Below are positions 261 through 34,278 of a DNA stretch of 45,800 nt, one piece after another. The position numbers were made by a program, and so were the translations under genes. Source of the DNA: a bacterium (GTDB taxonomy: Bacteria; Myxococcota_A; UBA9160; UBA6930); the NCBI GenBank assembly GCA_024228115.1, contig JAAETT010000360.1, forward strand, positions 1 to 45,800, read 5' to 3'. The notes beneath the pieces are model-generated. The model saw only the letters and a program-made list of their open reading frames with translations. It had not been told where the DNA came from and did no database searches. The first letter of the stretch is position 1; every line of letters begins with the position of its first letter.

Positions 261-1058
261 TCACCTCTGGGGCCAGGGACGGAGCGGTGTTCCGGTTGCT
301 GGATCGGATCTGGGATCAGCCGCCAGCCTCTGCTCGGTCGTCTCGGCGAGTCGGTGAAAGAAGATCGAACGCTCGAGCTCGAAGTCCGGTTCAAATGGCC
401 GGAACCCATCCGCACCATCTTTCGCCATGCGGCGGAGCAATTTGCGCGCATCTTCCCCCTTTTGATCAGGCCTCTCTTGTCGTACGAAGTCGACCAGTCG
501 CTCCATTTCTTCTGTGGCAGCGCCGGCCTCGATCCCCAGTTCGTCGAGCTTCGGCCAGGAACGATCGGGGTAGAACTGGGCCTTTGCGATGCCCAGGAGC
601 AGGTCGTGGGTGTGCTGTGAGATGAGATCCGATGCACGGGCCCTTTGAAGCCCCTCGCGAATATTCGCCATTGGTTCCGATATCGACTGGTACTTCCCGA
701 TCTCAGGAGCATGAACGAGCGCGACTTCGTCGTCGTCCTCGAGTTCTCCTGCGACGAAGCCTTCGAAGATCCGGCCCACTCCGCGCATGCCGAAGGTATG
801 AAGCTCCGCCGCCCTGAGAGCGCCCATGCTCGAGGCGCCGTAGACAGGGATTCCCTTGGCGAGCGCGTGCAGGATCTCCTTGTGCCAGACCGCGGGGACG
901 GCTTCGAACAGGCCGTCGATGATGCCGATCGCTTGCGGGTCTCCAAGGCTCGCTGCGTAGACGTCTCCCGCCCGGGCGGGTGCGCGGTAGTCCGCATCCA
1001 GCAGGGAACGGGCCTCTTTCAGAGGCAGGCTCGGTCCGAGAAAGACGACGACACTCAA
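261..1058 (-). CDS. tfuA: TfuA-like protein, YcaO partner
   Basis: This 265-residue protein matches the TfuA-like family. The diagnostic core around residues 70-100 reads GASSMGALRAAEL followed by FGMRGVG. TfuA proteins act with YcaO enzymes; in the methanogen McrA pathway the pair installs a backbone thioamide, TfuA probably helping deliver sulfur. The start is TTG at 1058, and the YcaO stop overlaps it in a TTGA junction, so the two are translationally coupled. By analogy this protein would help its YcaO neighbour thioamidate or cyclise a peptide made in the same island. The sequence does not show whether the product is a thioamide or an azoline. Family assignment is firm; the exact chemistry is inference. 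Confidence 0.88.
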   Translation of the reverse strand: MSVVVFLGPSLPLKEARSLLDADYRAPARAGDVYAASLGDPQAIGIIDGLFEAVPAVWHKEILHALAKGIPVYGASSMGALRAAELHTFGMRGVGRIFEGFVAGELEDDDEVALVHAPEIGKYQSISEPMANIREGLQRARASDLISQHTHDLLLGIAKAQFYPDRSWPKLDELGIEAGAATEEMERLVDFVRQERPDQKGEDARKLLRRMAKDGADGFRPFEPDFELERSIFFHRLAETTEQRLAADPRSDPATGTPLRPWPQR

Positions 1059-2299
1059 GGCGAAACCTTAGACGTCCGGGGATCCGCCCCTGTTTCCGCA
1101 GCGTTGTGCCGATGCGGTCCAACCCCCAGCCCCGGCACGATCACTTTGGCGACGGGAATGCCCAGATCGCTGTGTGTGAGGTCGACGATGATCGCATTCC
1201 CGTGGTCCGCTTTGCGCAGGGCATCGAGGACCACTGCGATGTCCTCCTCGAAGCTCTCGCTGGAAACGTCCTCATGCTCCCCGAAGGCCAGCGTTCCGGG
1301 GCTCGTGAAGAAGGTTTCGTGCAACGTCTGTGTTCGCTGCGGGTCATTCTGAAGATCGTAGATGTGTGCCGGGTTGTCGTCCCGGCTACCGGAGATGATG
1401 GTGAGCCGGCTCTGAGCTGCCTCGCAGAGTGCGCGTGAGAGTGCTACTGCGGGCGAGAGATGGCAGCCCCAGCCGTGGAAGACTCCCAGGCCGCGCCATG
1501 AGGATCGTGGATTCGATTCAGCGATGACACACTCATAAGTGGCGAAGCCCAGGCTCGATGTCAAATCCCGAACCGCGACGTCGACCTCGGCTCGCTCGAA
1601 ACAGGCGATCAGCTTCTTGCACTCGGGGTCGTCGACGCTGTCCAGGTCGATTCTCCTCTGCTGTCGTGCCGCTTCCGTCTCGCGTCCCCACACGTCCTGT
1701 GCATCCCGCTCGATGACCTCGAGTAGGCCGTGAAGGGTCGCCTCCAATAGATGATTTCCCGAGGCCAACCCGTTCGAGCTGTTGAAGAAGGTCAGTTTCA
1801 TGCTGTGGGAAAGGAGCGTGTTCATGGTCACGTATTCGTATGGCACCCACACCGGCTGCTCCCGAATCAGATCGTAGCCCTCGACCCAGGGCGCCGGGTT
1901 TCCCGGCAGCAACTGGCCCCCGGAGCGCAATGGGAGTCGGGTTACATCGATCGTCGGCCCGACCGCGCTCATCTCTCGATACGATCCGATCCGAACCGGA
2001 AGTTCGATCCATTCGGCATGCCAGTTTTCGACCGACTCCATCAGCGCGGAGACCTTGGCGTGATCGCGATCGATGCCTTTGCCCTGGGAGACCGCGAGGG
2101 ATCGCGAGTTCGGCCGGATGGCCATATAGACCGGAATGCCGATGCAATCGAGGCCGGTGACATTGGCGAGTCTAGTGATGCCCAGCTTTGGCATGAATGG
2201 CGCGAAGGCCGCCAGCGTCTTGTCGGGCCGACAGCTTCGATGTGATCCCGAAACCCTATGCGACTTCGCTTGTCGGTAGTCCTGCCCCAGGATCTTCAT
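1055..2299 (-). CDS. ycaO: YcaO-domain peptide backbone-modifying enzyme
   Basis: YcaO enzymes use ATP to phosphorylate a peptide amide and so make azolines, amidines or thioamides. Residues typical of the family's ATP/Mg site are visible: SALMESVENWHAE, GLLEVIERDA, and a C-terminal ALCEAAQSR segment. The product is 414 residues from ATG at 2299. A TTG 12 codons upstream is possible, but the peptide from MKILGQDY onward looks like a normal YcaO N-terminus. The C-terminus lacks the PxPxP ending of azoline-forming YcaOs, which fits a TfuA-partnered enzyme. It is transcribed divergently from the radical SAM gene at 2461 and overlaps tfuA by 4 bases. No E1-like or ocin-ThiF partner is fused or adjacent, so TfuA is the likely partner. 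The substrate is unknown. Confidence 0.92.
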   Translation of the reverse strand: MKILGQDYRQAKSHRVSGSHRSCRPDKTLAAFAPFMPKLGITRLANVTGLDCIGIPVYMAIRPNSRSLAVSQGKGIDRDHAKVSALMESVENWHAEWIELPVRIGSYREMSAVGPTIDVTRLPLRSGGQLLPGNPAPWVEGYDLIREQPVWVPYEYVTMNTLLSHSMKLTFFNSSNGLASGNHLLEATLHGLLEVIERDAQDVWGRETEAARQQRRIDLDSVDDPECKKLIACFERAEVDVAVRDLTSSLGFATYECVIAESNPRSSWRGLGVFHGWGCHLSPAVALSRALCEAAQSRLTIISGSRDDNPAHIYDLQNDPQRTQTLHETFFTSPGTLAFGEHEDVSSESFEEDIAVVLDALRKADHGNAIIVDLTHSDLGIPVAKVIVPGLGVGPHRHNAAETGADPRTSKVSP

Positions 2300-2460
2300 G
2301 AATCGTGGCTCTCGGTTTCCGGTGGTGAGGCTCAAAGTATGTCAGATGCCCGATGGTGGTTGCCATCGCGGTGGCCACGGTCCAGAATGTCTCGGAACCT
2401 AACTGTGTTGCCGTCGATCGCGAGGCCGCCCTCGCGCGGGGGTCCCGAGGTCGAGGCGCG
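2300..2460. promoter_or_regulatory. Divergent promoter region, ycaO / radical SAM
   Basis: These 161 bases separate the divergent ycaO and radical SAM genes and must hold promoters for both units if the chosen starts are right. I see no convincing -35/-10 pair or clear operator. Open frames enter this region from both sides, but their translations here do not resemble the families concerned. Confidence 0.4.
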
Positions 2461-4329
2461 ATGGCGAAGGTTTCCCCAATCCGCAAGGGAACGGAAGCGG
2501 TGGTTCTCGTGGTTCCGCCGGTGCTGCACCCGAACATGCCACCACTGGGAACGAGTGTCCTCGCCCCTGCCTGCGTGCAGGCGGGCGTTCCCACCCGGGT
2601 CGTGGAAGCCAACGTCGCCTTCGCAGCAAAGGTGGGCTTCGAGTTCTGTGGCCGGATTGCCGCCTCGCCGCCGTGGAAGCTGCTGGGGGAGGCGATTTTC
2701 CTGGCTGCGGCCTATCCGGAACGCGCCGACGAGCAACCCCGCGTCCTCGAGTTTCTCTCACAGGCTTCAGGACTCGGAACGATTGCGTTGCCCTGGGAGC
2801 CGCTCTCCGAGGCCGAGGTGTCGAGTTGTGCCGAGGCAGTGCCGGGCTTCATCTCCGAAACGGTGGAGCGTGTGTTGGCCGGGTCTCCTCGAATCGTGGG
2901 CCTGAGTGCCATGGGCCAGCAGACCTTGGCCAGCATCGCCATCGCCAGGGAGGTCAAGAGGTTGCGCCCGGAGGTGGTGACCGTTCTGGGAGGGACCAAC
3001 GCCACCGAACCCATGGGCAGCGGGATCCTGGCAACTACCGAGGCCTTCGATTTCGCGTTCTCCGGCGAGGCGGATCTCCGGTTCCCGGAGTTCTGCCGCA
3101 CGTACCTCGAGACCGGCGAGCTTCCAGAGCGCCGCATCGTGAGCTGTGCGCCGGTTGCCGACCTCGATCTCGTGGCCGAGCCGGACTACGACTCCTACTT
3201 CGCGGAACTCGAACTGCACCGGGCCTACGACCCGGTGGCCGACGCAGGTCCCGCCAACCTGCTCTTCGAGTCGTCGCGCGGTTGCTGGTGGGCCGACAAG
3301 CTCACCTGCAAGTTCTGCGGCTACATCACCCCTGGCACGCGCTACCGCGTGCGATCGCCCGAGAAGATCGTGACCTCCATCGAGTCGCTGATAGAGCGCT
3401 ACGGCGTTCGCGCGACGCGCGCCAGCGACGCCATCATGGCACCGCATTTTTCGAAGAACGTGCTGCCGCTGCTGATCGAGCGGGGCATCGACTGCTCAGT
3501 GGCCTACGAGGTGAAGTCCAACTTGAAGGAGGCCGAGCTCGACACTTTCGTCCGCGCCGGCGTCACTGAGGTACAGCCCGGCATCGAGTCGCTGTCAAGT
3601 CACGTCCTCGGCCTCATGGACAAGGGCGTCAGTGCCCTCGAGAATGTCGCCCTGCTGCGGAACGCGAGGTCCCGGGGCATCGAGGTAATCTGGAACTTCC
3701 TCACTGCGTTCCCCGGCGAGGCCCGCGAAGATTACGAGGCGATGATCGAGCTCATTCCGCTCATCGAGCACCTGCGTGCGCCCGTGCGCTGGGGCCCGAT
3801 CCACGTCTCGCGTTTCAGCCCGTACCACGGCGATCCGGCTCGCTGGAAAATCGAGAACGTGCGCCCCTTCGCGGTCTACACGGAACTATTTGGCAAGCTG
3901 GCAGACCAGGTCGCCTGCAACTTCGATGCAGATTACGAGACCGGATTCACACGTGATCCCGACCTGGTGCGCCGCTTCGACGAGGTGCTCGCTCGCTGGA
4001 CCGATTCCTGGCAAGTTCAAGGGGACCCCCCTTGCCTGGAGGCCTGGCCCCTGGACGGCGGATGGGTACTGGTCCAGGACAAGCGTCCAATCGCCCGGGC
4101 TCCGTGGCACCTGCTGACCGATGTGCAGGTCGAGGCCATGGAGAGCGTCCGCGCCCCGTCGCGGGTGGAGTCGATCCGCGAGACGAACCGGGCGCTGCTG
4201 GAGGAGCTGGTGGACCGCAGGCTCGTGGCGTTGTACGAGGGCAGATACCTGTCGCTGGTTAGCGAGCCGGATGTCGGTCTGGGCCTGAACGCCGAGCGGG
4301 AGCAGATCCTGGCTCGGAGCGGCGGATGA
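2461..4329 (+). CDS. RiPP maturation B12-binding radical SAM protein
   Basis: This 622-residue enzyme has a cobalamin-binding-like N-terminal region (about residues 10-240) and a radical SAM domain. Its cluster motif is SSRGCWWADKLTCKFCG, a CX7CX2C arrangement at C275, C283 and C286. The spacing and the GCWW context are hallmarks of the 'RiPP maturation radical SAM protein 1' family, whose characterised relatives C-methylate or otherwise modify peptides. I chose ATG at 2461 because residues after it run straight into the Rossmann-like strand AVVLVVPPV; an upstream ATG at 2353 would add 36 unmatched residues. A flavoprotein gene follows after 34 bases. It probably methylates unactivated carbons of the island's peptide, or does other radical chemistry; the reaction is not deducible here. 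Confidence 0.88.
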   Translation: MAKVSPIRKGTEAVVLVVPPVLHPNMPPLGTSVLAPACVQAGVPTRVVEANVAFAAKVGFEFCGRIAASPPWKLLGEAIFLAAAYPERADEQPRVLEFLSQASGLGTIALPWEPLSEAEVSSCAEAVPGFISETVERVLAGSPRIVGLSAMGQQTLASIAIAREVKRLRPEVVTVLGGTNATEPMGSGILATTEAFDFAFSGEADLRFPEFCRTYLETGELPERRIVSCAPVADLDLVAEPDYDSYFAELELHRAYDPVADAGPANLLFESSRGCWWADKLTCKFCGYITPGTRYRVRSPEKIVTSIESLIERYGVRATRASDAIMAPHFSKNVLPLLIERGIDCSVAYEVKSNLKEAELDTFVRAGVTEVQPGIESLSSHVLGLMDKGVSALENVALLRNARSRGIEVIWNFLTAFPGEAREDYEAMIELIPLIEHLRAPVRWGPIHVSRFSPYHGDPARWKIENVRPFAVYTELFGKLADQVACNFDADYETGFTRDPDLVRRFDEVLARWTDSWQVQGDPPCLEAWPLDGGWVLVQDKRPIARAPWHLLTDVQVEAMESVRAPSRVESIRETNRALLEELVDRRLVALYEGRYLSLVSEPDVGLGLNAEREQILARSGG

Positions 4330-4363
4330 TTCCGACGCGGAACACCACCGGGAGGAAGCGCCC

Positions 4364-5350
4364 TTGACCTCGCTCGACACGCTCGTGATCGGCGGCGGAC
4401 CCGCCGGTCTCGCCTCCGCCGTACGCGCGGCGTGGTTGGGAACCACCCGGGTCGAGCGGCAACGGGTGGGGCTGATCGAGGCCTCCGAGCTTCTTGGCGG
4501 CCTGGCGCTCTGGCGCCCTCCGCAGACCTTTGCTCCGAACAGCTACTTCACGAAACGGGACATCAAGGCTCTGGAGGATGCCTGCCGCGAGTACGAGGTG
4601 GAGATCATTCGAGATGAGGTGGTGGCACTCGAGCCCGGAGAACACACGCGGGTGGTGTGTCGGAAGGCTGCCCACGAGGCGTCGAGCGTGGTGGTGACGA
4701 CGGGCCTGAAGCGGTCCTTCCACACGGAGAAGATGCTCCACGACGGAGGTCGGCTCTACTGGTTCACGGATCTCGAGGTGGGTGCAGGCATTCTCGGTCG
4801 ACTCGACGCGCACACCGAGCATCGTCGGGTGATCCTCTGCGGCAGCCGAATGGCATTGGCCACTGCGCAGATCTTTCGGGCGCTGGAGACGGGCCTGGAA
4901 ATCTGCTGCATCGTCGAGGCCAGCGCTCCGGACGAGGTGCTCGCGCAAGACGTGGCCGGGACTGTCGATGCAGTGGGGAGCGACGGCACCGATGTCGTCG
5001 TCACCGTTCGCAGCGGTTCGAACGCCGCCCCGACCGAACTCCGGGGCGATGTCCTGCTGGTGGACTTCAACTCCTACGAGCTTCACTGCGCTTCTACCGG
5101 CTTCGTCGCCGCCAGCGGTATTGCGCTCGAGAAGAATGGTTACATCCAGGTAGACCGGGAGATGTGTACCAACATGGGGGGACTCTTCGCCGCGGGGGAC
5201 GTGACGGGGCCTCCTTCTTCGGTGATCAAAGCTCTTTACGAGGGGACGATGGCCGGCTTCTCGGCCTACCGTCACGTCTACCGCTTGAAACACGGGAGCG
5301 ATCCGGACCTCAATCCCTACTTCCCCGAGCCCATTCCCCGCACGTTCTGA
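4364..5350 (+). CDS. Thioredoxin-reductase-like FAD oxidoreductase without CxxC
   Basis: This 328-residue flavoprotein starts at TTG 4364, eight bases after a GGAGGA ribosome-binding site. The FAD-binding GGGPAGL lies at about residues 9-15, and the C-terminal FAD motif LFAAGDVTG is well preserved. The middle, where thioredoxin reductase has NADPH binding and a redox-active CxxC, has ILCGSRMALATA and no CxxC anywhere, so it cannot be a classical thioredoxin reductase. It could oxidise azolines to azoles, as FMN dehydrogenases do in other YcaO clusters, or supply electrons to the radical SAM or di-iron enzymes; both are inference. Its 3' end overlaps the convergent gene ending at 5317 by 34 bases. 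Confidence 0.8.
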   Translation: MTSLDTLVIGGGPAGLASAVRAAWLGTTRVERQRVGLIEASELLGGLALWRPPQTFAPNSYFTKRDIKALEDACREYEVEIIRDEVVALEPGEHTRVVCRKAAHEASSVVVTTGLKRSFHTEKMLHDGGRLYWFTDLEVGAGILGRLDAHTEHRRVILCGSRMALATAQIFRALETGLEICCIVEASAPDEVLAQDVAGTVDAVGSDGTDVVVTVRSGSNAAPTELRGDVLLVDFNSYELHCASTGFVAASGIALEKNGYIQVDREMCTNMGGLFAAGDVTGPPSSVIKALYEGTMAGFSAYRHVYRLKHGSDPDLNPYFPEPIPRTF

Positions 5351-7458
5351 AACGTCCGTCCCTCATCCTTCACATCCGCGAGTTCGACCTGGAGGAAGCC
5401 CATCCCGATGCAGCGCTGAGCGAGCTGCCGGAACATGCGTTCGCTTTCCTCCCGTGCCGGTTCGGGCATCTCTCCCAGCCACGCTGATAGAAACTCGTCG
5501 ACGTTGCGGGGGAGACCGTCTCCCAGTAGATCGAAGAGCGTCGGGTTCATGCTGAAGCTCGCGCTGGGCCCAGTGATGCGCACTTCCTGCCCCTCGAGCC
5601 CCACTTCCTCTCCCTCGAGCCGCAGGTCCAGCAGAGGGTTCCAGCGCAGTCGGACGCGGCTCGGGTCTCCGGTGTCTGGCAGGCTGGTGGTGAAGGGGAA
5701 GGGGCGCCCGTGGTAGTGGCGGCCATAGAGAACCGAGTACTCCTCGAAGCCGGGCCAGAGGTGGGCAGCAGTGTTGTGATGACGCTCGAAGATCGCCCGC
5801 AGGGCCGGGTAGAACTCCTCCTCGATCAGGCGACGGACGTCTTCGTTGGCGAGCCCCCGGGTGTTGGTCCAATCCTGCGGAGCGATGCCGATGACGAAGT
5901 CTTTCTCCAGGGCTTCGGCTGCGATCTCCACGCCGAGCTTCGCCCGCTCATCACAATAGGAGGTCCGGAATTCGAGGCCGAAGGCGTGCATGTCGAACGA
6001 GTTACCGGGGTGGTCGATGATTTCCTGGTTGTCGACCAGGAACGCGAAGGTCTTTCGCGCCGCCGCTTCGTCTTCCTCGGGAAATCCGATGATGGAGAAG
6101 AGATGGAAGTCGATTCCAGCCTGGCGACAGTGTTTCAAGATGGTGGGGGCGTCGGCAATCCGCGTTCCCTTGTCCATGTGGTCGAGGGTTTGCTGGCAGC
6201 CGGACTCGAGGCCGAAAAAGAGCTTGCGCATCCCCATCTCGTGAAGACGCTCGAAGACCTCCGGCGTGAAGCCCGGCTCCAGCCTCGCGTAGCCCGTGAA
6301 CGAATGATCGCCATCCGTTCCCAGCGCGTCCGCGAGCTTGACGAGGAGCTTGGGCGAGAGCGCCTCATCGGTGATCACGAAATTGCGGCAACCGAAGCGC
6401 GCGGCCAGCGCGCGCACGTCCGCCGCGATCTGCTCGGCCTCCCGCACCCGGTAAGCCTTGCGACTGACGCGATTGATCGCGGCGATGTCGCAGAAGCGGC
6501 AGCGGTTGTAGTAACACCCCTTGCCGGCAAGGATCGGAAGCACGGGCTCCGGCACCAGGTACGAAGCCAGAGGCAAGCCCGAGAAGTCGGGTGTTGGCAG
6601 GCTTCGCACGTCTTCTACGTGAGCGATCGTCGCCTGTACCGAATCCCCACGTTGGAAGAGCAGGTTGGGGACGTTCTCGAACTCTCGGGAGCCAGCGAGT
6701 TGGTCCAACAGGGCTAGCAGGGCCGTCTCTCCTTCGTAGACGACCACCGCGTCGGCGAAGGCCTCGAAGAACGCGGGCCGCCTGGCCAGGGCGTCGGCGA
6801 ACTTGGAGTAGACCGTTCCCCCAATGACGACGAAGTGGCCGCGCTGGCGCAGCCCCCGCGCCAGCATCAGGCCCGGTAGGATCTGCTGGCGGTTGGTGAT
6901 GCTGATCCCTACCAGGTCTGGCGGCACTGCTTCGAGACCCGGGAATACGTCCTGCTCCCAATGCTCGGCGAAGAGATTTGCGGCGGGGTCCGCGGTCACG
7001 TCGATCAGGTGGGAGAGCTTCTGCGGGTCGACGCCCGGCACGCCGTAGCGGGCCGGGAAGAAGGCGCAGGCGACGCCGCGAGGGTCGGCCATGCACGTCA
7101 GGGCCAGTCCGGATTCCAGGATCGCGCGGGCGCTGGAGTGATCGTTGGCATCGTAGAAGTGCTCAGGGCTGCGAAGTGTCGTGAAGGAATCGGGCACATT
7201 CTGAAGCAGGGATTCCCCCAGGAGCGCCATGCGGCTACGCGGCTCGCTCCAGTCGAGGCGTGTACCCAGGGAATCGCGCAGACGTCGCACGGCCTGTTCC
7301 AGAAGATCTGGCTGTAGCAATGCTTCGAAGCCCAACACGTTGAGATCGAGCAGGTCGACCTGGACACCGGAACCGCGCAGGGCCGCTGCCAGCGAGGGAA
7401 GCGCCAGCTGGGGTCCTCGCGGATCGCCGCACGGCGGGTAGATCAGGGTCGCTTTCAC
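5317..7458 (-). CDS. B12-binding radical SAM protein
   Basis: This 713-residue protein starts at GTG 7458, three bases after the MBL-fold gene's stop. The N-terminus (MKATLIYPPC, LALPSLAAAL) and the VIGGTVYSKF region near residue 211 are typical of B12-dependent radical SAM enzymes. The cluster motif GKGCYYNRCRFCD gives C315, C320 and C323, a CX4CX2C spacing. The following 200 residues contain the usual EAEQIAADV and FFGLESGCQ segments of the barrel. A C-terminal region of about 170 residues matches nothing I recognise and could bind substrate. It is the second B12 radical SAM enzyme in the island but clearly belongs to a different subfamily from the one at 2461. Likely reactions are C-methylation or ring formation on a peptide; the substrate is unknown. 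Confidence 0.85.
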   Translation of the reverse strand: MKATLIYPPCGDPRGPQLALPSLAAALRGSGVQVDLLDLNVLGFEALLQPDLLEQAVRRLRDSLGTRLDWSEPRSRMALLGESLLQNVPDSFTTLRSPEHFYDANDHSSARAILESGLALTCMADPRGVACAFFPARYGVPGVDPQKLSHLIDVTADPAANLFAEHWEQDVFPGLEAVPPDLVGISITNRQQILPGLMLARGLRQRGHFVVIGGTVYSKFADALARRPAFFEAFADAVVVYEGETALLALLDQLAGSREFENVPNLLFQRGDSVQATIAHVEDVRSLPTPDFSGLPLASYLVPEPVLPILAGKGCYYNRCRFCDIAAINRVSRKAYRVREAEQIAADVRALAARFGCRNFVITDEALSPKLLVKLADALGTDGDHSFTGYARLEPGFTPEVFERLHEMGMRKLFFGLESGCQQTLDHMDKGTRIADAPTILKHCRQAGIDFHLFSIIGFPEEDEAAARKTFAFLVDNQEIIDHPGNSFDMHAFGLEFRTSYCDERAKLGVEIAAEALEKDFVIGIAPQDWTNTRGLANEDVRRLIEEEFYPALRAIFERHHNTAAHLWPGFEEYSVLYGRHYHGRPFPFTTSLPDTGDPSRVRLRWNPLLDLRLEGEEVGLEGQEVRITGPSASFSMNPTLFDLLGDGLPRNVDEFLSAWLGEMPEPAREESERMFRQLAQRCIGMGFLQVELADVKDEGRTFQNVRGMGSGK

Positions 7459-7461
7459 GGA

Positions 7462-9621
7462 TCACGCTTTGTCTTGCGAGAGGATCGAATCGAACCAGGC
7501 CCCTTCGTCCTCGGCATCGATCGCAGTCCCCAGAGTGAGGCAGCCGATGTAGGAGTTGTGGATGAGTTTCCCGAGCACGAGCGCCAGGGTCATCTCGACG
7601 GGTTCGAAGCGTTCTCGCAGGGCGTCCGCCCGGGAGGGCCAGGGGATGGGGATCTGCTTCCAGCGCTTCGTCTGCTCGGGTGGCAGGCCCGGGCCCTGGG
7701 GTGTGTGCGGCTGCGCCGGTGGCCGTTCGGCCAACAAGCGGCCGATGCCGTCCGATAGCTCGTACGGCAGGTCGCGGAAGGGAGGCCTGCGCGCGATCCT
7801 TCGCAAGTGACCGGCGACAACGTCACCCTCGCGCATGCGGACGAAGGTCTGGAGGTGAAGTCTGCGGAACAGGGAGTACCAGTCCTTGTCGGTACCGAAA
7901 GGTGCTGCCGAGAGCGCTGGTCGCGATCGAACGACGGTGACGGATGCCCCCTCCAAGAGGCGGGCCAGCATCTCGCGAAGGAAGTCGCCCTTGCCGCTCG
8001 GCGAGGTGTAGAGCTCGCTGAAGCCGGGGCCCGCGACCAGGAAGGCTCCCGTGTCGAGTGTCGTCAGACTGGCGAGGTCGCCCAGCAGCTCGGCGTCGAG
8101 GCCCGGTCCGCTGAAGGCAAAGCACTCCGGGTCGCTGCTGCGGCCCGCCGGCCGAAAAGCGTCGGATGTCGATGGCTGCCGGAGGCCCTCCCGCCACTCC
8201 AGCGTCCCGTTCTCAGTCAGGTGCTGGCCCGCCAACAGAAAGCGCAACTCGAAGTCGCTGGTGAGCCCGAGTTCGGGCGGCGCGGAATTCAGTAGCTCGC
8301 GCGTATCGGCGTCGAAGTCCGTGGGTCGTTGCTGCTTCTTCAGGGGATCGAAGCCGAGACCCCGCTCCTCGAACCAATGCGCCCCACCCATGGCGTAGGG
8401 AATCGCGTAGCGCGCCTCGAGCACCTCCGCCGCTCGCAGGAACTCCTGGGGCTCGAGCATCAGGCGCTGTTGCCTGGCCAGCTCCTCGTCGGGAACGAAG
8501 CACAGGTATTGCGGGACCGACGAAGGCAGGAACTGTGGGGGGTAGAGATTCCAGCGCCGGTGGTTGGCGAAGAAGTAGTCGACGCGGCCGACTTCGCGAC
8601 GTAGCGCCCGCGTGTACTCCTCGATCGACATGCGGGGATCCGATCCGGAATCCGCCAGCAGCAGGCTCGTCGATCCGCCGGCACGCAGCGCGTAGACGTT
8701 TCCACGGTTGAAGTCGGACAGGCCCGCCTCGCTTCCCCAGCCCAGCGGCTGCTCGCCGTAGAAGGGAAGCGCCGTGATCTCGAAGCTCCCGAGCTCGAGG
8801 CTCTCCCCCCACTGCAGGGTGCGCACGTCGTGGAACTCCAGCTGTTCGAGGCGCCTGCGCACGTTGATCGAGAGCAACGATTCCTCGGGGACGTCGGGCA
8901 CGATGAAGATCGAGTCGGCCGGGAACTGGAAGAGGCAGCCCGGCGCGAAATGGTCGGCGTGCGTATGCGTGATGAGGATGACGTGGCGCTCCTCCGGGAA
9001 GTCCAGTGGGCTGAGCGGCTGGTAGTGGTTCGGGTAGCGCGGTGCCTTGGGGCAGAAGAACGGATCCGTCCAGACGCGCAGGTCGCCGTCGGACCAGCTG
9101 ATGCAGGCGTGCCCCACATAGAGCGGCTCGCCGGATTTCTTGCCACCGCCGTGAACGACGCGCTCGAAGCCCGTGGCAGCGATGGCGGGCTCGAGCTCCT
9201 CGACGAAGCGCTGGAGCGCCGGCCCCCCCGCATCTCCCTCGCCGCGCAAGAGCGTCCGCAGCGCGTCGCAACCGACGCGGTCCAGCGGCACGCTCGCCAG
9301 GCCCGTCCCGACAGTGGAGCGCAGGTGGGCCCAGGCCGGCGCGATGTCGTCTTCCTTCGGGTGCCAGAAGGAGGTGTCGGCCAGAACCGCCTGGTGTGGT
9401 TCCGATCGGCGCTCGCGTAGCACCGAGTCGGCCGTCTCCCGTACCGACAGGCGCTCTGCACGGCGGGCGGGGTCGAGCATGAGCGCGGCCACGGCCTGGG
9501 TCGTCTCGGGATAGAGGGAGCCTGCTACGAAATCCTGAAGTCGGCCCGAGAGGGTCGATCCGTAGGGGGTGCCATCTGTCCACTCGACCGAAATGTCCAG
9601 GAAATCGGCGACTCGCTTCAT
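7462..9621 (-). CDS. Large metallo-beta-lactamase-fold hydrolase
   Basis: The true product is 719 residues from ATG at 9621; that ATG overlaps the upstream gene's TGA in an ATGA junction. A longer open frame continues upstream but there it only shadows the preceding gene. The metal-binding motif HTHADH is at residues 219-224 inside a strand-loop typical of the MBL fold, with more candidate ligands in LLLADSGSD and FFANHRRW. About 170 residues before and about 350 after the core are unlike standard hydrolases; one C-terminal stretch reads LALVLGKLIHNSYIGCLTLG. The position between a SpaB_C-like gene and a B12 radical SAM gene implies a role in peptide maturation, such as hydrolysing a peptide or ester bond. 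It could also be an oxidoreductase of the flavodiiron type, though no flavodoxin domain is seen. Confidence 0.75.
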   Translation of the reverse strand: MKRVADFLDISVEWTDGTPYGSTLSGRLQDFVAGSLYPETTQAVAALMLDPARRAERLSVRETADSVLRERRSEPHQAVLADTSFWHPKEDDIAPAWAHLRSTVGTGLASVPLDRVGCDALRTLLRGEGDAGGPALQRFVEELEPAIAATGFERVVHGGGKKSGEPLYVGHACISWSDGDLRVWTDPFFCPKAPRYPNHYQPLSPLDFPEERHVILITHTHADHFAPGCLFQFPADSIFIVPDVPEESLLSINVRRRLEQLEFHDVRTLQWGESLELGSFEITALPFYGEQPLGWGSEAGLSDFNRGNVYALRAGGSTSLLLADSGSDPRMSIEEYTRALRREVGRVDYFFANHRRWNLYPPQFLPSSVPQYLCFVPDEELARQQRLMLEPQEFLRAAEVLEARYAIPYAMGGAHWFEERGLGFDPLKKQQRPTDFDADTRELLNSAPPELGLTSDFELRFLLAGQHLTENGTLEWREGLRQPSTSDAFRPAGRSSDPECFAFSGPGLDAELLGDLASLTTLDTGAFLVAGPGFSELYTSPSGKGDFLREMLARLLEGASVTVVRSRPALSAAPFGTDKDWYSLFRRLHLQTFVRMREGDVVAGHLRRIARRPPFRDLPYELSDGIGRLLAERPPAQPHTPQGPGLPPEQTKRWKQIPIPWPSRADALRERFEPVEMTLALVLGKLIHNSYIGCLTLGTAIDAEDEGAWFDSILSQDKA

Positions 9622-10433
9622 GTTCTCGTCAGCTCCGGACGGCACGCCTCCCGTGCCTCGGCAAGGATCTGTTGCTGGGTCGGGAGGTCGAGTGCCCATA
9701 GGTTGTAGATGTAGTTGAGACATTGCAGCAGTGTCGTGCTGGCCTCGAATCCGGCGCTGCGCGGCGCCGCCAGCAGCGGCAGCAGGGCCTCGAAGTCTGA
9801 TGGGTCGCAGAGTGTGGCAGCGGGCTGATCGCGCTGTGCGGAAGCTCCTTCGAGCGGCGTGCCGCGCAGACGCGCGAAGCGCCCCAGCGCCTCCCACACC
9901 AGCCAGCGATCGTTCAGATGGCAATCGAGGAAGGCGATGCTGAACTCCGACCAACGACCGGCCGTACAGCGGGAGCCCGAGATCAGGGCCTCCATGTAGG
10001 CGTCGGAAGCCGCGGTCAACAGACGGTTCACGTCGTCTTGGAAGGCCCCGGAAAGGAGCTCGCGCTGCTCGAAATAGGAGTCGAATACGCGTGCTCCGAG
10101 CCACGACCACTTCCACTGGCCCTGCGCGAGCAGCAGTGTCTCGATCAGCGCTTCGGGCGGGCCATCGGCCTTGAAACGCAGGCGTAGGCCCGGGGGCTTG
10201 TGAAGGAAGAACCAGGCCTCGACCAGGTCGCGGCGTTCGAGATCACGCCGCAGGTTCCGCAGGGCGAAGAAGAACTCGGTCTGCTCCTTGAGGGAAGGAA
10301 TGTGTCGGACTTCCAGGCCGAGTTGGAGCCAGTCGTTGACCAGCGGGATATCGAGGGCGCCATCGTTCCCGTCGGCGGCGTGGAACACGCCTAGTCGCAA
10401 GGGCTCTTCATGCTGGACGCGAACGATCTTCAC
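9618..10433 (-). CDS. Thiopeptide-type / SpaB_C-like biosynthesis protein
   Basis: The 271-residue product starts at GTG 10433. The segment AWFFLHKPPGLRLRF near residues 75-89 closely resembles the conserved WFFIRY...P.LRLRF block of the 'thiopeptide-type bacteriocin biosynthesis' and lantibiotic dehydratase C-terminal (SpaB_C) family. In lanthipeptide dehydratases this domain eliminates glutamate from glutamylated Ser/Thr; stand-alone relatives in thiopeptide pathways do the same or catalyse cycloaddition. Here it is the first gene of a minus-strand trio and overlaps the MBL gene by 4 bases. Its likely partner, a LanB-like glutamylation-type protein, is encoded divergently at 11254. Whether the two form a split dehydratase or belong to a tRNA-dependent peptide-ligase system without elimination is not visible. 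Confidence 0.72.
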   Translation of the reverse strand: MKIVRVQHEEPLRLGVFHAADGNDGALDIPLVNDWLQLGLEVRHIPSLKEQTEFFFALRNLRRDLERRDLVEAWFFLHKPPGLRLRFKADGPPEALIETLLLAQGQWKWSWLGARVFDSYFEQRELLSGAFQDDVNRLLTAASDAYMEALISGSRCTAGRWSEFSIAFLDCHLNDRWLVWEALGRFARLRGTPLEGASAQRDQPAATLCDPSDFEALLPLLAAPRSAGFEASTTLLQCLNYIYNLWALDLPTQQQILAEAREACRPELTRT

Positions 10434-10558
10434 GATCCTGCCTCGTGCAGTGGACGCCCATCATACGCGATCGCTCTCCTTCGCGACATTCCTTCCCTTG
10501 CACTGGGCGGCAGGCACGGCTGAGCGTCATTCGCTATGGGTTCCAGGAGGGCACGGAC
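10434..10558. promoter_or_regulatory. Divergent promoter region, SpaB_C-like / HO-like genes
   Basis: These 125 bases lie between two divergent operons. A good ribosome-binding site, CAGGAGGG near 10544-10551, precedes the ATG at 10559 and decides that start over an in-frame ATG at 10445. I see no clear promoter boxes or operator palindrome. Confidence 0.4.
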
Positions 10559-11257
10559 ATGTCACATGCGGTATCGAGCGCCACGATTTCGCACTTTCGT
10601 GATGCGTTTCAGGAAATCCTGCGCTGGGACGAGCAGATCCCTCCGGCGCAGCACGCACTCCTGCTCGCGGAGCCCGCGGCGCGCGAGTGGGCGCGGCAGT
10701 CGTTGATCGAGTCGTACTGGCGGATGTGCGAGACGACCCGGTTGATCCTGGCTGCCGTCCAGGCCCTCGACACCCGCGGCGACATCGAGAGTGCGCGCTT
10801 CTGGAGCGCCCACATCGACGAAGAGCTGGGACATGATCGGGTGTTCTACAAGGATGTATGCGCACAGTACGGGAGTGTCGAAGCCGGTGAGGCAGCGTTG
10901 GCGAAGTTTCCCCCGTCACCTGCCACGGCGGCGTTGCTGGGGTATTTCCGTTGGCAGGTCGAGCGCGGCAACCCGCATCTGCTGATGGTGCTGCGCTTCT
11001 TCCTGGAGTCATTCCTGGTGGTGGAGCTCGACGAGATGGAACGCTTCGAACGCTCTCTCGGGAACATCGGTCTGGAGACGCTTCGCACTCATCGCGAGCA
11101 CGATCTCGACCACGTGAAACCCTGTGGCCCCTATCTGGACGCGCACTTCGAGCCGTCGGATATCCCCACCATCGTGTGGTCTAGCGACTTCATCACGACC
11201 TGCCTGATCGAGAGCCAGACCTGGGTGGCCACACGGGTGTTGCGCAACCTCGAATGA
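10559..11257 (+). CDS. Heme-oxygenase-like putative di-iron enzyme
   Basis: This 232-residue, largely helical protein resembles the heme-oxygenase-like / TenA-PqqC 'iron-containing redox enzyme' superfamily. Candidate iron ligands are E58, H85, the ExxH at E89-H92 (HIDEELGH), E150 and H181/H185 (HDLDH). Members of this HDO superfamily use a di-iron site and oxygen for N-oxygenation, C-C cleavage or desaturation, including in natural-product pathways. The start at 10559 follows a good ribosome-binding site; 38 upstream in-frame codons are probably not translated. The stop overlaps the next gene in an ATGA junction, so it is co-translated with the LanB-like protein. The reaction is unknown; the fold assignment rests on ligand pattern and length, not on a database match. 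Confidence 0.65.
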   Translation: MSHAVSSATISHFRDAFQEILRWDEQIPPAQHALLLAEPAAREWARQSLIESYWRMCETTRLILAAVQALDTRGDIESARFWSAHIDEELGHDRVFYKDVCAQYGSVEAGEAALAKFPPSPATAALLGYFRWQVERGNPHLLMVLRFFLESFLVVELDEMERFERSLGNIGLETLRTHREHDLDHVKPCGPYLDAHFEPSDIPTIVWSSDFITTCLIESQTWVATRVLRNLE

Positions 11258-13200
11258 AGGCGCTGCACTTCCGGTACGGCTGGATCGCGCGGCCCCGGTT
11301 GGCCGAACTACTTCCTGTGTCGGACGAGATCGCAAGCATGCGCCAGCTGCTGGAGCGGCGGCGCCGGCTACTGGAACAACCCAACAGCGAGGCCATGCGC
11401 CGCGACGCCTGGAGCCGGGATGCATTGCGCGTGGCCGCCTGGTTTCAGAAGCCCCGTGTCGATCGCCCGCCGAGCCTGAAGGCCGTGCGCAGCACCCGTC
11501 GGCTGGCCGAGGAGGCCGACGATCGTCTGCTGTACGAGATTCAAGATTGGGTGGGCGAAGCACACTCCCTGCTGGATGGAAGCCGCGCGGAGAAGTCTCC
11601 ACCTCTCGATGAGATGATCTCGTTCCTGGAAGCACTGGCCCGGACCGACTTCCCGAGCCTTCTGTCGTGGCGCCAGGCGCGTCTCGCAGCGCGCCTGTTC
11701 GTCGCCGATGGGCATGGTGCGCAAGAGCTGGCGCCGACGTACCGGCGGGCCGGTCGGGCCACGGTTCAAGCGGCGCGCACCTGTGTTGGCTACGCCCTGG
11801 CGGGCGTGGGCCGGTTGGCACCGCGCCAGGCCTGGGTGGGGGTTGGCTTCGGCCGCTTCGAGGCGACGAGTTCCGAGGAGAGCATCGCTGTCGTGCGCGA
11901 TCGGGAGCGCATCTGCGTCGAGCCCGACCTGGCCTGGATCGAGCGGCACTGGCGAGACCTCGAACCCATGCCCCTGGCAGCGGGTACGCGGCCCTGGAGC
12001 TACCTGGATGAGCGCGTTCGCATCCAGTCCGATCCGCGGGTGGAGCGGTACCACGCAGAGATAGTCGAGCAGCTCCGCGAGCTGGCGAATCAGGTAGAGG
12101 CAGAGCCCTGGCACTTCGAAGCCATCCAGGGCTTTCTGACTGCGACCGAGGCCCTGCTGCGTGAATCGGTGGGCGAGGAGATCTGGGGCGAGGACCCACA
12201 CGCCTGGTGGGTCAGTCGCTACCTGCCCGAGGAACAGTCCGTCGCGCAGGAATGCTCGCAGCAGTTCCGGCAAGATTTCGTGCAGCACCGGGCTGGGTTG
12301 CGCGAGCGCCGCCTACTCTTCGAGCCCGACGAGGACTGGATCCATCCGGTTCTCCTGCCCTATCCCTACCGCCTCCGACAGCGCTCTCCTGCCGCGATTC
12401 GTGTCGAGGCGGAGGAGTTCTTCGACTGGGTCGCCGAGATCGGCGGCGGGGAAGGCGCCGATCTTCCGTTCGTGCCGCCGACTGCCGAGCCCGGCGCCGC
12501 TCTGGTGAGCTGGATCGACGAACGGGGCTCGCGCCACCAGTTCGTCGATCCCAGCCCGCGGCGGGCTTCCGAGCGGAGTGCCGTCTGCATGGTCTCCCGC
12601 CCGCTCTTTTCGGAACCGCAGGTGAGCGACGGCCAGGCGCTGCGGCCGCCGCTCCATCGGGTCGACAACCGACTGGTGCGACTCCAGGAGACCGAGCGAG
12701 ATCCGGCTGAGGTGTCGCCGGGGGAGTCGGTCAGCTTTCACTCCGCGCTGCTCGATGTGGAGACTACGCCGCTACTTGCCTTGGAGTTGGCATCGGCCCG
12801 CTACGCGCGGGCCGCAGACCTGGTTCCGCAGCTCGTGGAGCAGGAGGCCGCGGAGCAGCTCTCGTTCGGGCGTGTGTGGGCCCGGGATGGCGTGTGGCTG
12901 CTGGAGCCGGTCGAGAGTCGGGAGCTACTTCGCAAGCTGGGAACGGCGCGTGCGCTCGCCGGGCTCTATCACCTGGAGGTCCACGAGGTGCTGGGTCAAC
13001 CTGCATGGCTCGATGTCGTGGCGAACGGAAAGCATTCCGCGCTCCCGACCCAGTCGCTCGTAGCCTGGGACTACCTCGTTCACCTGTTGCGGACGACCTC
13101 TGTTCCGCTGGCCCTGATCCATCCCAAAGCGACGACGCGAGCTCCGCTGATCGTCGACGCTGCGGGAGGCGCACTGCCCAGCCAGGTTCTGGCGCGCTGA
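11254..13200 (+). CDS. LanB-like (glutamylation-domain-like) protein
   Basis: This 648-residue protein has features of the lantibiotic dehydratase N-terminal domain, which uses aminoacyl-tRNA to esterify or ligate amino acids onto a peptide. Near residues 186-204, GRLAPRQAWVGVGFGRFE matches the position and shape of the R(x)SPFGLFAGVxxGxF signature, but the PFG is replaced. It is followed by CVEPDLAWIERHWRDLE, like the family's TRLDMxWL..L..LE. Length and split architecture resemble thiopeptide-type small LanBs and PEARL enzymes, which lack the elimination domain. It overlaps the HO-like gene by 4 bases and ends 16 bases before a strong hairpin. Several family residues are diverged, so it may act on an unusual tRNA or be non-catalytic. 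Assignment is moderate. Confidence 0.5.
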   Translation: MKALHFRYGWIARPRLAELLPVSDEIASMRQLLERRRRLLEQPNSEAMRRDAWSRDALRVAAWFQKPRVDRPPSLKAVRSTRRLAEEADDRLLYEIQDWVGEAHSLLDGSRAEKSPPLDEMISFLEALARTDFPSLLSWRQARLAARLFVADGHGAQELAPTYRRAGRATVQAARTCVGYALAGVGRLAPRQAWVGVGFGRFEATSSEESIAVVRDRERICVEPDLAWIERHWRDLEPMPLAAGTRPWSYLDERVRIQSDPRVERYHAEIVEQLRELANQVEAEPWHFEAIQGFLTATEALLRESVGEEIWGEDPHAWWVSRYLPEEQSVAQECSQQFRQDFVQHRAGLRERRLLFEPDEDWIHPVLLPYPYRLRQRSPAAIRVEAEEFFDWVAEIGGGEGADLPFVPPTAEPGAALVSWIDERGSRHQFVDPSPRRASERSAVCMVSRPLFSEPQVSDGQALRPPLHRVDNRLVRLQETERDPAEVSPGESVSFHSALLDVETTPLLALELASARYARAADLVPQLVEQEAAEQLSFGRVWARDGVWLLEPVESRELLRKLGTARALAGLYHLEVHEVLGQPAWLDVVANGKHSALPTQSLVAWDYLVHLLRTTSVPLALIHPKATTRAPLIVDAAGGALPSQVLAR

Positions 13201-13215
13201 GGCTCCCAAGAAACC

Positions 13216-13254
13216 GACAAACCTGAGGCGCGCTTCGGCCGCCTCAGGTTTGTC
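13216..13254. terminator. Bidirectional hairpin between convergent genes
   Basis: GACAAACCTGAGGCG at 13216-13230 pairs perfectly over 15 bases with 13240-13254, around a 9-base loop containing TTCG. It sits 16 bases after the LanB-like stop and about 50 bases from the stop of the convergent Tat-signal gene, so it could terminate both. Neither side has a long T-run. Confidence 0.75.
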
Positions 13255-13306
13255 GAGGAAACCCGATCGACGGATGAACCGCCGGGTGGGACCGCGTCGT
13301 GGCCGT

Positions 13307-13714
13307 CTACCAGGGACACATGGTGGTCGAGGCCGCTGCGCCCGGGTCGAGTTTCGCGATGGTCTCGTAGGCGCTGCCCAGCTCGCGCAACTGCGCAGCC
13401 GTCAGCATCTTGCTGGTCTCGTTGGCTCTCGGCGTGCGAAGCTTGCCCTTGAGATTGGCCGGAAGTCCGTCGAAGGCGGCCTTCTGCTCCGCCGTCACAT
13501 TGAACGGCTGGCCGTTTCTGGGCGAGATCTTGATCATCCCAGGACCCTGCTGGATGCCTGGGAGTGCCCGCTTCATGGCGGGCTTGATCTTCATCTCCCG
13601 GGCGCCTCCCGGGCTCTTCTTGTCTTCGGCGAGGGCTTTCAGCGCCAGCGATGATCCTGCGGCTGCCAGCGCAGTCCGCATGGCGGCTTGCTTGATGAAG
13701 ACTCGACGATTCAT
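13307..13714 (-). CDS. Small Tat-signal protein; candidate RiPP precursor
   Basis: The 135-residue product starts at ATG 13714 behind an AGGAGGGG ribosome-binding site. It begins with a clear twin-arginine motif (NRRVFIK) and a hydrophobic stretch, with a likely cleavage site after LKALA near residue 29, so export by Tat in folded or modified form is expected. The mature part is basic and Pro/Gly-rich, then a helix-prone segment (LTAAQLRELGSAYETIAKL), and ends in STTMCPW. No enzyme family is recognisable. It is convergent with the RiPP island and adjacent to it. The short C-terminal Ser/Thr/Cys tail after a helical segment has the layout of a leader-core peptide, but this is inference. It could equally be an unrelated small periplasmic protein or a small subunit of an oxidoreductase. 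Confidence 0.7.
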   Translation of the reverse strand: MNRRVFIKQAAMRTALAAAGSSLALKALAEDKKSPGGAREMKIKPAMKRALPGIQQGPGMIKISPRNGQPFNVTAEQKAAFDGLPANLKGKLRTPRANETSKMLTAAQLRELGSAYETIAKLDPGAAASTTMCPW

Positions 13715-14035: not shown

Positions 14036-15085
14036 TCAGACGACTTCGAGCGCCGGCGGCCCCTCTTCGACCTCGGCGACGCGCACGGCCGCCGCCACGC
14101 CCGCGGCCCGAAGAGCACTCACGAGATCGTCTGCTTCGTGCCCGGGGACCGAGAGTAGAAGCCCACCCGAGGTCTGGGGGTCGAAGAGGATCTCCTCGTG
14201 CTTGCGGGAAACATCTGCTCGCATTGTCATGGACGCCTCGACCATGGCCCGGTTGGCAACGTTGCTCCCGGTGGTCTCCCCTCGCTGGTACATCTCGAGT
14301 GCCCCCGGGTAGACCGGCAGGCTTGCGAAGTCGAGACGCAATCGACTCCCGGAACCACGGGCGATTTCGAGGAGGTGTCCGGCGATGCCGAACCCGGTCA
14401 CGTCCGTGCACGCATGAAGGTCGAAGCCCAGGGCGATCTCCATCGCTGATCCGTTGAGAGAGGCGACCGCCGGCAGGACCTCTCGCTCGAGCTCCGCAAA
14501 GTCGAACCGGCCGGAACGTACCGCGTTGAACAACACGCCGGTGCCGAGCGGCTTGGTGAGGACGAGTGCGTCCCCCGGCCTGGAGCCGGCATTGGTGATG
14601 ATCCGGTCCGGGTGGACTGTGCCGTTGACGCTGAGACCGTATTTGGGCTCCTCGTCTTCGACCGAATGACCGCCAACGAGACAGGCTCCGGCCTCAGCCG
14701 CCTTGTCGTTGCCGCCGCGCAGGATTTCCCTCAGCAGGCCCGCGTCGAGCTGCACGATCGGGAACATGACGAGGTTCAGGGCGGTCATCGGCCGGCCACC
14801 CATCGAATAGATATCGGAAATCGAATTGGCAGCCGCGATCAGACCGAACCAGTAGGGGTCATCGACTGGCGGGGTGATGAAATCGACCGTGCTGATGATC
14901 GCGAGTTCGTCCGAGAGCCGGTACACCGCGGCGTCGTCGGCCGTTTCGATGCCGACCAACAGGTTCGGGTCCGACGGTGGCGTCAGCCCGCTGAGCGCGT
15001 CCGACAGAGCCGCCGGACCAATCTTGGCCGCTCAACCACAGGTTCGAGCGAGCCCGGTGAGCGTCTTCTTCTTTCGGAATGCCAT
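14036..15085 (-). CDS. selD: Selenophosphate synthetase, itself a selenoprotein
   Basis: SelD makes selenophosphate from selenide and ATP for selenocysteine synthesis. Conventional reading shows only 307 residues from a TTG at 14959, lacking the catalytic N-terminus. Reading on upstream in the same frame through a TGA at 15032-15034 reaches ATG at 15085 and gives a 349-residue protein. Its N-terminus contains RTCG-Sec-AAKIGP, aligning with the GCGCK active site of E. coli SelD, with Sec18 replacing the catalytic Cys. The ATG has a GGAGAT ribosome-binding site. Downstream, the Gly-rich ATP site and acidic metal motifs (ADDAAVY, TDVTGFG, DPQTSGG) are intact. It is the last gene of the operon after the CoA transferase. 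Sec-containing SelD is known in many bacteria, so the call is firm. Confidence 0.95.
14999..15018 (-). promoter_or_regulatory. Putative bacterial SECIS hairpin in selD
   Basis: Fourteen bases after the UGA, the mRNA can form a 7-base-pair stem (GUCCGGC with GUCGGAC, including one G-U pair) capped by the hexaloop GGCUCU. Distance and G-starting small apical loop fit the bacterial SECIS element that SelB recognises, as in fdhF, whose loop is also rich in G and U. Confidence 0.72.
15032..15034 (-). other. In-frame UGA read as selenocysteine
   Basis: This TGA is codon 18 of selD. It falls exactly where SelD proteins have catalytic Cys or Sec, with conserved protein sequence on both sides, so recoding is far more likely than a nonsense mutation. 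It implies selA, selB and a tRNA-Sec gene elsewhere in the genome. Confidence 0.92.
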
Positions 15086-17202: not shown

Positions 17203-18074
17203 GTGAGGCTCCAGGAGGCAAGGACCGGGTCTTCGCCATTTCGACGGGTTCGTCCGTCACGCTCCAGCTTCATCAGGTGCTGGGTGACGGATTGGCTAGC
17301 CGCCGGGTGCAGTGACTCCGGGTAGCTCACGTAGACGATCTTCACGATGTCCATCGGGAGGGCGGCGCCGTCCTCGAGAACGGCCACGATCTGTCGCTCT
17401 CTTTCGTGGCGATGGGCGATGTACTCATCGATCTTGGCCTTGCCATCTTCGATCTTCGGGCCATGGGCCGGGTAGATGCAGCTCGGGTGCTCGGCGCGAA
17501 GCCGTTCGAGTGAAGCCATGTACTGGGTGAGATCCCCGGTTTCCGCAGGAATCACGGTCGTGCCCACGCCCAGCACGTTGTCGCCCGAGATCAGTGCTCG
17601 CTCCTCTTCGATCATGAAGCAGAGATGGTCGGGGGCATGTCCCGGAGTGTGGAGCGCACGAAGCGTGGCTCCCTGCGTCTTGATGACGGATCCGTCGTCG
17701 ATCGGCGTGAGCTCGAGACCGTAGGACTCGTCGACCCCGGGCCATGGCTTCTTCGAGACCTTCAGATTGCCGAAGTGCTTCAGCACCTGATGCACGCCTC
17801 CGATGTGATCCGGGTGAGCGTGGGTGAGGACGATTTCCTGGAAGCCTTCGCAACCGCAGCGCTCCATCGCCTGCTCGAGCACGGGGAGGTACTCCTCGAA
17901 ACCCTGGCCCGGATCGAGGAGCAAGCGCCGGGGGCCGGTGCCGATCAAGTAGGTGTTCGTGCCCGGCCCCGAGAACACGCTCGGGTTCTGGCCCAGCGCC
18001 ACGGTCACCCGCTCCGACCAGACGTCGACATCCGGCAGAGCCATTCCGAGCATGACGGGGGCGTTACTGGTCAT
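17199..18074 (-). CDS. LACTB2-like MBL-fold hydrolase
   Basis: This 291-residue protein has the metal motif THAHPDHIGG at residues 84-93 (HxHxDH), GTNTYLIG near residue 38, HTPGHAPDHLCF, and a GDNVLG Asp ligand. A C-terminal winged-helix-like part (IVKIVYVSYPESLHPAASQSVTQHLMKLERDG) is typical of the LACTB2 / human endoribonuclease LACTB2-like group. I chose ATG at 18074 because it overlaps the PmbA stop in an ATGA junction; an upstream in-frame codon at 18137 would lie inside pmbA. The likely activity is a phosphodiesterase or thioester hydrolase. Its place before a CoA transferase makes acyl-CoA thioester hydrolysis an alternative. Confidence 0.85.
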   Translation of the reverse strand: MTSNAPVMLGMALPDVDVWSERVTVALGQNPSVFSGPGTNTYLIGTGPRRLLLDPGQGFEEYLPVLEQAMERCGCEGFQEIVLTHAHPDHIGGVHQVLKHFGNLKVSKKPWPGVDESYGLELTPIDDGSVIKTQGATLRALHTPGHAPDHLCFMIEEERALISGDNVLGVGTTVIPAETGDLTQYMASLERLRAEHPSCIYPAHGPKIEDGKAKIDEYIAHRHERERQIVAVLEDGAALPMDIVKIVYVSYPESLHPAASQSVTQHLMKLERDGRTRRNGEDPVLASWSLT

Positions 18075-20868: not shown

Positions 20869-21572
20869 GAGAGATCCTTTTCGAGGGCCTCCACCCGGGC
20901 CGGAAGCTCGGCGAGCGTAGCAAGCGAAGCCACGTCGATCGGATGCAGGCCGGCGGTTTTCGAAGCTCGGAGATCCTCGTCGGCTCGGTCGCCGACGTAC
21001 ACACAGCGGTGATTCGCGACTCCGAGCCGCTTCAAGCACACGTCGAAGATCAGTCGTTCCGGCTTGGCGGCACCCGCATCTGCGGGGAGCGTGACTGCAT
21101 CGAAGAGATCGTGGATGCCGAGGTCGCAGAGCAACGGCCGCAACCGCTGATCGAAGTTCGAGAGCAGGCCCAGCAGATAGCGGCGTTCATGGAGGTCTTC
21201 CAAGGCGACCCGAGCGCCCGGGGCGAGTTCCCAGGCGGCGGTGGTTCCGTAGTGGTCCCACAACTTCTCGAAGAACGCGTCGAAATCGCTGAAGCGCGCC
21301 ATCTGGTCGGTCGCCCTGAAGGTTTCGCGCACGCGCTCCCACCACCAGCGCTTTTCCAGGAGGGCAGCCGGGGCCATGGCTTCACCGGGGTAGACGTTGG
21401 GCGGTGCAGCGGCCATGACCCGCCCGAAGGCCTCCTCTACCCGCGCGGCAGGTAGCTCGACCTCGAATTCCCTGGCAAAGCGCGCGTAGGTGTCCCCGAC
21501 CGGTTCACAGGTCCGGATCAGGGTGCCGGCGGCATCGAAGACCACCGCTTGAATGGGTCGGAACTCAGCCAT
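20865..21572 (-). CDS. HAD-superfamily hydrolase-like protein
   Basis: This 235-residue protein follows the HAD-IA / HDHD3-like plan. Motif I is VVFDAAGTL (D13), motif II is LLSNFD, motif III is the Lys in AAKPERLIF, and motif IV is YVGDRADED. The second motif I Asp, the usual acid/base in phosphatases (DxD), is Ala15, as it is non-Asp in several HDHD3/REG-2 relatives, so phosphatase activity is doubtful. The start at ATG 21572 lies 58 bases after metH. It overlaps tldD by 4 bases. The physiological substrate is unknown. Confidence 0.88.
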   Translation of the reverse strand: MAEFRPIQAVVFDAAGTLIRTCEPVGDTYARFAREFEVELPAARVEEAFGRVMAAAPPNVYPGEAMAPAALLEKRWWWERVRETFRATDQMARFSDFDAFFEKLWDHYGTTAAWELAPGARVALEDLHERRYLLGLLSNFDQRLRPLLCDLGIHDLFDAVTLPADAGAAKPERLIFDVCLKRLGVANHRCVYVGDRADEDLRASKTAGLHPIDVASLATLAELPARVEALEKDLS

Positions 21573-29396: not shown

Positions 29397-29418
29397 GGAT
29401 CCCCCCTTCGATTCCCGG

Positions 29419-32998: not shown

Positions 32999-33019
32999 CG
33001 GAGGTTCTCCTCTAGCGGT

Positions 33020-34258: not shown

Positions 34259-34278
34259 GCCGCTGGCCTCCCGAAGGG

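Follow-up and report, generated by a model that had tools for sequence, protein, structure and literature searches.

A candidate RiPP cluster from Myxococcota_A with a TxMC-tailed precursor and a CmlA-like MBL-fold protein

In the class I lanthipeptide dehydratase NisB, residues Y80, R83 and R87 belong to the glutamylation site and H961 to elimination; the R83A variant has a severe defect, and dehydration is abolished in H961A (PMC4341554). Among the RiPPs that use a TfuA-YcaO pair, the thiovarsolin pathway includes VarO, a heme-oxygenase-like (HO-like) protein that has been proposed to be a dehydrogenase (PMC6511847). The dehydrazoles are hypermodified RiPPs that combine YcaO with dehydratase enzymes (PMC10676384). 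The known members of the CmlA/FrsH family of diiron beta-hydroxylases belong to nonribosomal synthesis, in which their substrates are carrier-bound amino acids (PMC7794379). Here we describe a ten-gene RiPP cluster that occupies 13 kb (261-13714) of contig JAAETT010000360.1, whose whole length of 45,800 bp is referred to as the window. On the basis of sequence comparisons, we consider, with a probability of about 0.7, that this cluster is responsible for a RiPP belonging to a family that is apparently undescribed and is distinguished by a precursor with a TxMC tail and by a CmlA-like MBL-fold enzyme, and that its enzymes act on the terminal residues STTMCPW.

The genes are arranged in coupled units: TfuA-YcaO and SpaB_C-MBL-rSAM2 on the minus strand, rSAM1-flavoprotein and HO-LanB-like on the plus strand, and the small precursor gene alone on the minus strand, with 4-base overlaps at TfuA/YcaO, MBL/SpaB_C and HO/LanB. 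All the genes listed in the preliminary description, including the TfuA-YcaO pair, the two B12 radical SAM proteins and the flavoprotein, were found at their coordinates in these coupled units. Only 260 bp separate TfuA from the contig end; given that the cluster begins at this edge, genes further to the left could be absent from the assembly. Elsewhere in the window there is a type II secretion-like gene run (27280-39670, minus strand), and a tandem repeat coding for ADAPAAES closes the contig (about 45600-45800).

The precursor gene (13307-13714, minus strand) has an AGGAGG ribosome site on its 5' side and encodes a protein of 135 residues with a twin-arginine signal (NRRVFIK), a stretch reading MNRRVFIKQAAMRTAL...ALA, a leader region and the C terminus AASTTMCPW, of which STTMCPW (13310-13330, minus strand) is the presumed modification site. 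As read, the protein contains no repeats and a single tail. Its stop codon is TAG, hence a reading with a TGA-encoded selenocysteine was ruled out. A strong hairpin (13215-13255; -55.8 kcal/mol for a fold over 116 nt, z = -3.5) lies where the LanB-like and precursor genes converge and is probably a terminator. Nearby, the SelD frame (14036-15085, minus strand) crosses an in-frame TGA (CGUAAK), from which the selenophosphate synthetase itself is probably a selenoprotein. TatC is present in the genome, and a C39 peptidase was not found in it.

The recurrence of the tail was revealed by the MBL protein. A search with this protein across the phylum led to loci with adjacent small ORFs ending in NPSTVMCAF (L032), GSTIMCCW (L033) and TASTVMCPW (L034); a contig scan with the single MBL sequence gave no matches, and an MBL alignment then yielded further loci in two collections, most of which again carry tail ORFs (four in L084). 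The common tail can be written as T-x-M-C-x-[W/F], or T-x-M-C-(0-2)-[W/F], and it stands behind leaders as unlike as Nif11 (above the curated cut-off in one relative) and double-glycine. With a fixed pattern, 15 tail ORFs were counted in 10 of 18 cluster loci and one in the window, as against zero in 437 kb of control sequence (65 loci). This count includes near-copies from related genomes, and several of the 18 loci are fragments of one genome; moreover, the first examples served to define the pattern and are therefore not independent, and the majority of the 15 ORFs come from loci retrieved once the motif had been noticed. Across 17 tabulated precursors T, M and C are invariant although their codons vary. 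Divergent forms also occur: an internal GTAMCW in a Nif11-like ORF (judged by eye) of Streptomyces paradoxus, an internal TTMCTTF in an annotated hypothetical protein 5' of a lantibiotic dehydratase gene on a plasmid of Streptomyces ADI95-16, and a frame ending in GTIMCPSR, devoid of the aromatic residue, in Nannocystis poenicansa (L041/L085). The tail is not a general trait of TfuA-YcaO loci, given that no TxMC precursor was found in eight other TfuA loci checked.

For a precursor the Tat protein is long, and the cluster begins at a contig edge, so it may be asked if it is instead an ordinary protein of the periplasm, with the true precursor encoded past that edge. This seems very improbable, since the tail is common to many small ORFs beside homologous enzymes and the protein is 39% identical, along some 79 residues, to the double-glycine precursor of L038. 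The window presents what is expected of a RiPP, an encoded precursor with a conserved tail and leader kinds beside modifying enzymes.

The MBL-fold protein (7462-9621, minus strand) was previously described as a large hydrolase; the fold holds, and a PDB profile search, a motif table and a tree place it nearest to the CmlA/FrsH-type diiron oxygenases. Its closest profile matches are CmlA (1.7e-19) and the diiron monooxygenase 8a90 (1e-18), which we take to be FrsH, and not hydrolases. The protein bears the motifs HxHxDH, PFYGEQP and DSG, and it keeps the HxHxDH residues, a Glu at the position of CmlA E377 and the bridging Asp. The invariant Glu of PF[YF]GEQP corresponds in the alignment to the position at which the CmlA entries 5kik and 5kil differ (GE to GD), the latter presumably being the E377D variant. 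The region equivalent to E430, which we assume to be the last acidic ligand of CmlA, has instead an Arg with adjacent His/Tyr; this acidic ligand is not conserved, and for this reason it is not certain that the MBL protein carries out dioxygen chemistry. It is probably a dinuclear metal oxygenase or oxidase, and it differs from CmlA and FrsH in being located in a RiPP cluster. In the MBL tree, a 100/99 branch has the TxMC-linked proteins to one side, and those from the window, L038 and L032 form a 100/100 clade. L040 and L080 lie on the same side and have no TxMC ORF, the L080 contig being cut approx. 1 kb upstream of the MBL gene. The idea that the MBL protein replaces LanC was weakened by its co-occurrence with LanC in Streptomyces ADI95-16 and with LanM-like proteins (identified by eye) in L043 and L088. 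Such GEQP-type MBL proteins adjoin the LanM-like proteins (L043, 5862-10807; L088, 817-5790), and the enzyme may serve class II lanthipeptides too; L088 also contains an NHLP-like ORF (2207-2524) ending in FGQCPIQW.

Another aspect of this cluster is its pair of proteins reminiscent of a split class I dehydratase. The LanB-like protein (11254-13200, plus strand) is highly diverged: it has no Pfam or NCBIfam match, and its label stands only as a remote kinship (hhalign E 6e-4, probability 29%). In an HMM comparison, two homologues gave E-values of 5e-4 and about 3e-3 to 1e-2, and the window protein 0.66 (1,269-sequence database); its structure model has a pLDDT of 35 and is unusable. LanB ancestry is thus weakly indicated, and the homologues (L091, L092) occur in genomes that have a precursor of the TxMC family. 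The SpaB_C-like protein (9618-10433, minus strand) is below the NCBIfam cut-off when taken alone, and its label is upheld by an alignment with seven homologues. In comparison with NisB, this degenerate elimination-type domain keeps R784, shows changes at the positions of E823 and R826, which we take to be catalytic, and has lost the H961 region. In a weak alignment, the R83 position is Ala or Gly in all three LanB-like proteins of the window type, while Y80 and R87 are kept. The glutamylation-site set is consequently incomplete, R784 is all that is kept of the elimination set, and LanC was not seen among the ten cluster proteins, although the cluster begins at the contig edge. The loss of the R83 and H961 equivalents, critical in NisB (PMC4341554), makes standard tRNA-dependent dehydration unlikely, and the earlier proposal of a tRNA-dependent addition is not supported by this comparison.

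These observations bear on two other explanations. According to the first, the locus specifies a variant class I lanthipeptide, in which LanB/SpaB_C dehydrates Thr, Cys captures the product to give methyllanthionine and the other enzymes decorate the peptide. The T-x-x-C spacing of the core agrees with this idea, as do the canonical LanB (PF04738) and SpaB_C (TIGR03891) of G260, both over cut-off, and the Streptomyces ADI95-16 locus, which has LanB, SpaB_C, LanC and a TTMC precursor; nevertheless, the window pair lacks the very residues whose replacement cripples NisB, and the window cluster showed no LanC, so we regard it as unlikely. The second, which we judge improbable, is that the tail works as a pearlin-like carrier to which the LanB-like protein appends a C-terminal amino acid that is modified and then released as a small metabolite. 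The conserved C-terminal motif across unlike leaders and a LanB-like protein with no elimination domain of its own could be explained in this way. However, canonical relatives pair LanB with SpaB_C, the loss of R83 disfavours tRNA chemistry, and the conserved aromatic C terminus together with Trp-directed enzymes suggests that the tail itself is modified. These enzymes are a DMATS-type prenyltransferase (G260) and two Trp-halogenase-like proteins (G558), present where the tails end in W, and they suggest the terminal Trp as a modification target.

The HO-like protein (10559-11257, plus strand) has no match to any HO family; what remains of the di-iron candidate formerly proposed is its modelled fold and its ligands. 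The model (pLDDT 83.7) shows a heme-oxygenase/TenA/CADD fold, with 3dde, TenA and CADD as best matches (TM about 0.65-0.7, none at E 0.001). The pattern ExxH / E / HxxxDxxH, which is that of the heme-oxygenase-like dimetal oxidases, is invariant in the alignment. The fold and ligands are those of such oxidases, and the MBL and HO-like proteins are probably two non-heme metal oxidases. TfuA (261-1058, minus strand; PF07812 5.7e-45, NF033432 221 bits versus a cut-off of 235) adjoins YcaO (1055-2299, minus strand; PF02624 4e-79), whose nearest family, under cut-off, is the McrA-glycine thioamidation YcaO. This adjacency is that of TfuA-YcaO RiPPs, and the pair is also present in L038, L039 and L094. 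The cluster resembles those of the thiovarsolins in combining the pair with an HO-like protein; in contrast, no repeating precursor with VarA-type cores, amidinotransferase or ATP-grasp ligase was seen in the window, and MBL-fold, radical SAM and LanB-derived proteins are added. Separately, YcaO, TfuA and HO-like genes are grouped in L119 (7754-10999, G260) with no TxMC precursor, possibly in a thiovarsolin-like arrangement.

The first B12-binding radical SAM protein, rSAM1 (2461-4329, plus strand; CX7CX2C), is a member of the RiPP C-methyltransferases of TIGR03975, well above the curated cut-off (534 versus 282 bits), whereas rSAM2 (5317-7458, minus strand; PF04055 and PF02310), with the cluster motif CX4CX2C, is below it (98). 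A homologue of rSAM2 (50% identical) was found in one of 308 class genomes searched, G260, where it follows SpaB_C in the TxMC cluster. The flavoprotein (4364-5350, plus strand; Pyr_redox_2 4e-15) is a thioredoxin-reductase-like FAD protein devoid of CxxC and a possible electron donor. The rSAM1-flavoprotein unit (2461-5350) has no counterpart in any relative locus examined and is divergently transcribed, as would be expected if a TxMC RiPP core and an independent unit were mere neighbours. We consider this doubtful, given that rSAM1 exceeds the cut-off for enzymes of RiPP maturation and lies between YcaO and rSAM2, and that its surroundings showed no further precursor.

The grouping of these genes is more than chance, given that genomes with a like-tailed precursor again combine homologues of the MBL, SpaB_C, LanB-like, HO and TfuA-YcaO genes. 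The window, L032 (G278) and L038 (G530, Myxococcales nzgw256) have the HO-like protein in common; the LanB-like protein is also present in G278 and G530, on other contigs, TfuA-YcaO and SpaB_C are common to the window and L038, and G278 has a partial SpaB_C (L092) and no TfuA that could be found. Most members of the other subgroup have LanB and SpaB_C of the canonical kind; a C39 exporter is often present, and TfuA-YcaO (L039, L094), a DMATS-type prenyltransferase, Trp-halogenase-like proteins or a JmjC/cupin-like protein in some cases. A TIGR04500-like helical C-terminal domain, perhaps a common precursor-binding part, recurs as a fusion to MBL, rSAM2 or TfuA, depending on the locus (L033, 5692-7434; L034, 6922-9423; L094, 5247-6332). 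The exact set and order of the ten genes was seen in the source MAG only, and the MBL gene in one of 80 genomes of the order, the source genome itself; the relatives keep partial sets, and an order conserved across species, named earlier as a possible sign of one pathway, was not found. This distribution points to a family that spans Myxococcota and Actinomycetota, with the precursor and the CmlA-like MBL protein as core and LanB/SpaB_C, TfuA-YcaO, HO-like and radical SAM proteins as variable components.

As had been supposed, no characterised cluster with the combined set was found in the literature searched, nor a description of the TxMC tail or of any RiPP cluster that includes a CmlA-like protein; bioRxiv preprints and most subscription papers were outside this scope, so the absence is no proof. 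The dehydrazoles have a different dehydratase (DUF4135), and MBL and HO-like proteins are not named in the abstract of that report (PMC10676384).

The genes themselves show the precursor with its tail, the families of the enzymes and the recurrence of these elements; the action of the enzymes on the tail is inferred. In the preferred reading, the product would be an unusually heavily modified small RiPP of the TxMC family, and the enzymes would act in the cytoplasm on the last seven residues. TfuA-YcaO would introduce a backbone thioamide (or azoline), one or both B12 radical SAM enzymes would C-methylate unactivated carbons, and the MBL-fold and HO-like proteins would hydroxylate or desaturate residues, perhaps with electrons from the flavoprotein. 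The LanB-like/SpaB_C-like pair would be a decayed class I dehydratase retained for another role, e.g., substrate binding. The modified precursor would then be exported by Tat (in relatives, by a double-glycine leader and a C39 exporter) and trimmed by a protease. A TldE/TldD-like pair is encoded at 18071-21039 (minus strand), 4-8 kb away from the precursor gene. Proteases of this type take part in the trimming of some modified peptides, but those of the window may be housekeeping. Of the single pathway envisaged in the preliminary description, a RiPP with TfuA-YcaO, radical SAM enzymes and two probable oxidases is retained, and the tRNA-dependent addition is not supported. The fuller proposal of a RiPP class in which CmlA-like diiron oxygenases hydroxylate the TxMC tail, a decayed split LanB has a new role, and the peptide is thioamidated, C-methylated and exported by Tat is more tentative, and we hold it to be somewhat less probable than its contrary. 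If true, an oxygenase type of nonribosomal synthesis would enter ribosomal peptide chemistry, and the pair would be a natural case of a dehydratase devoid of its known chemistry and yet retained in a pathway. The TxMC tail together with a CmlA-like protein provides a signature with which this unexplored peptide family can be searched for in Myxococcota and Actinomycetota.
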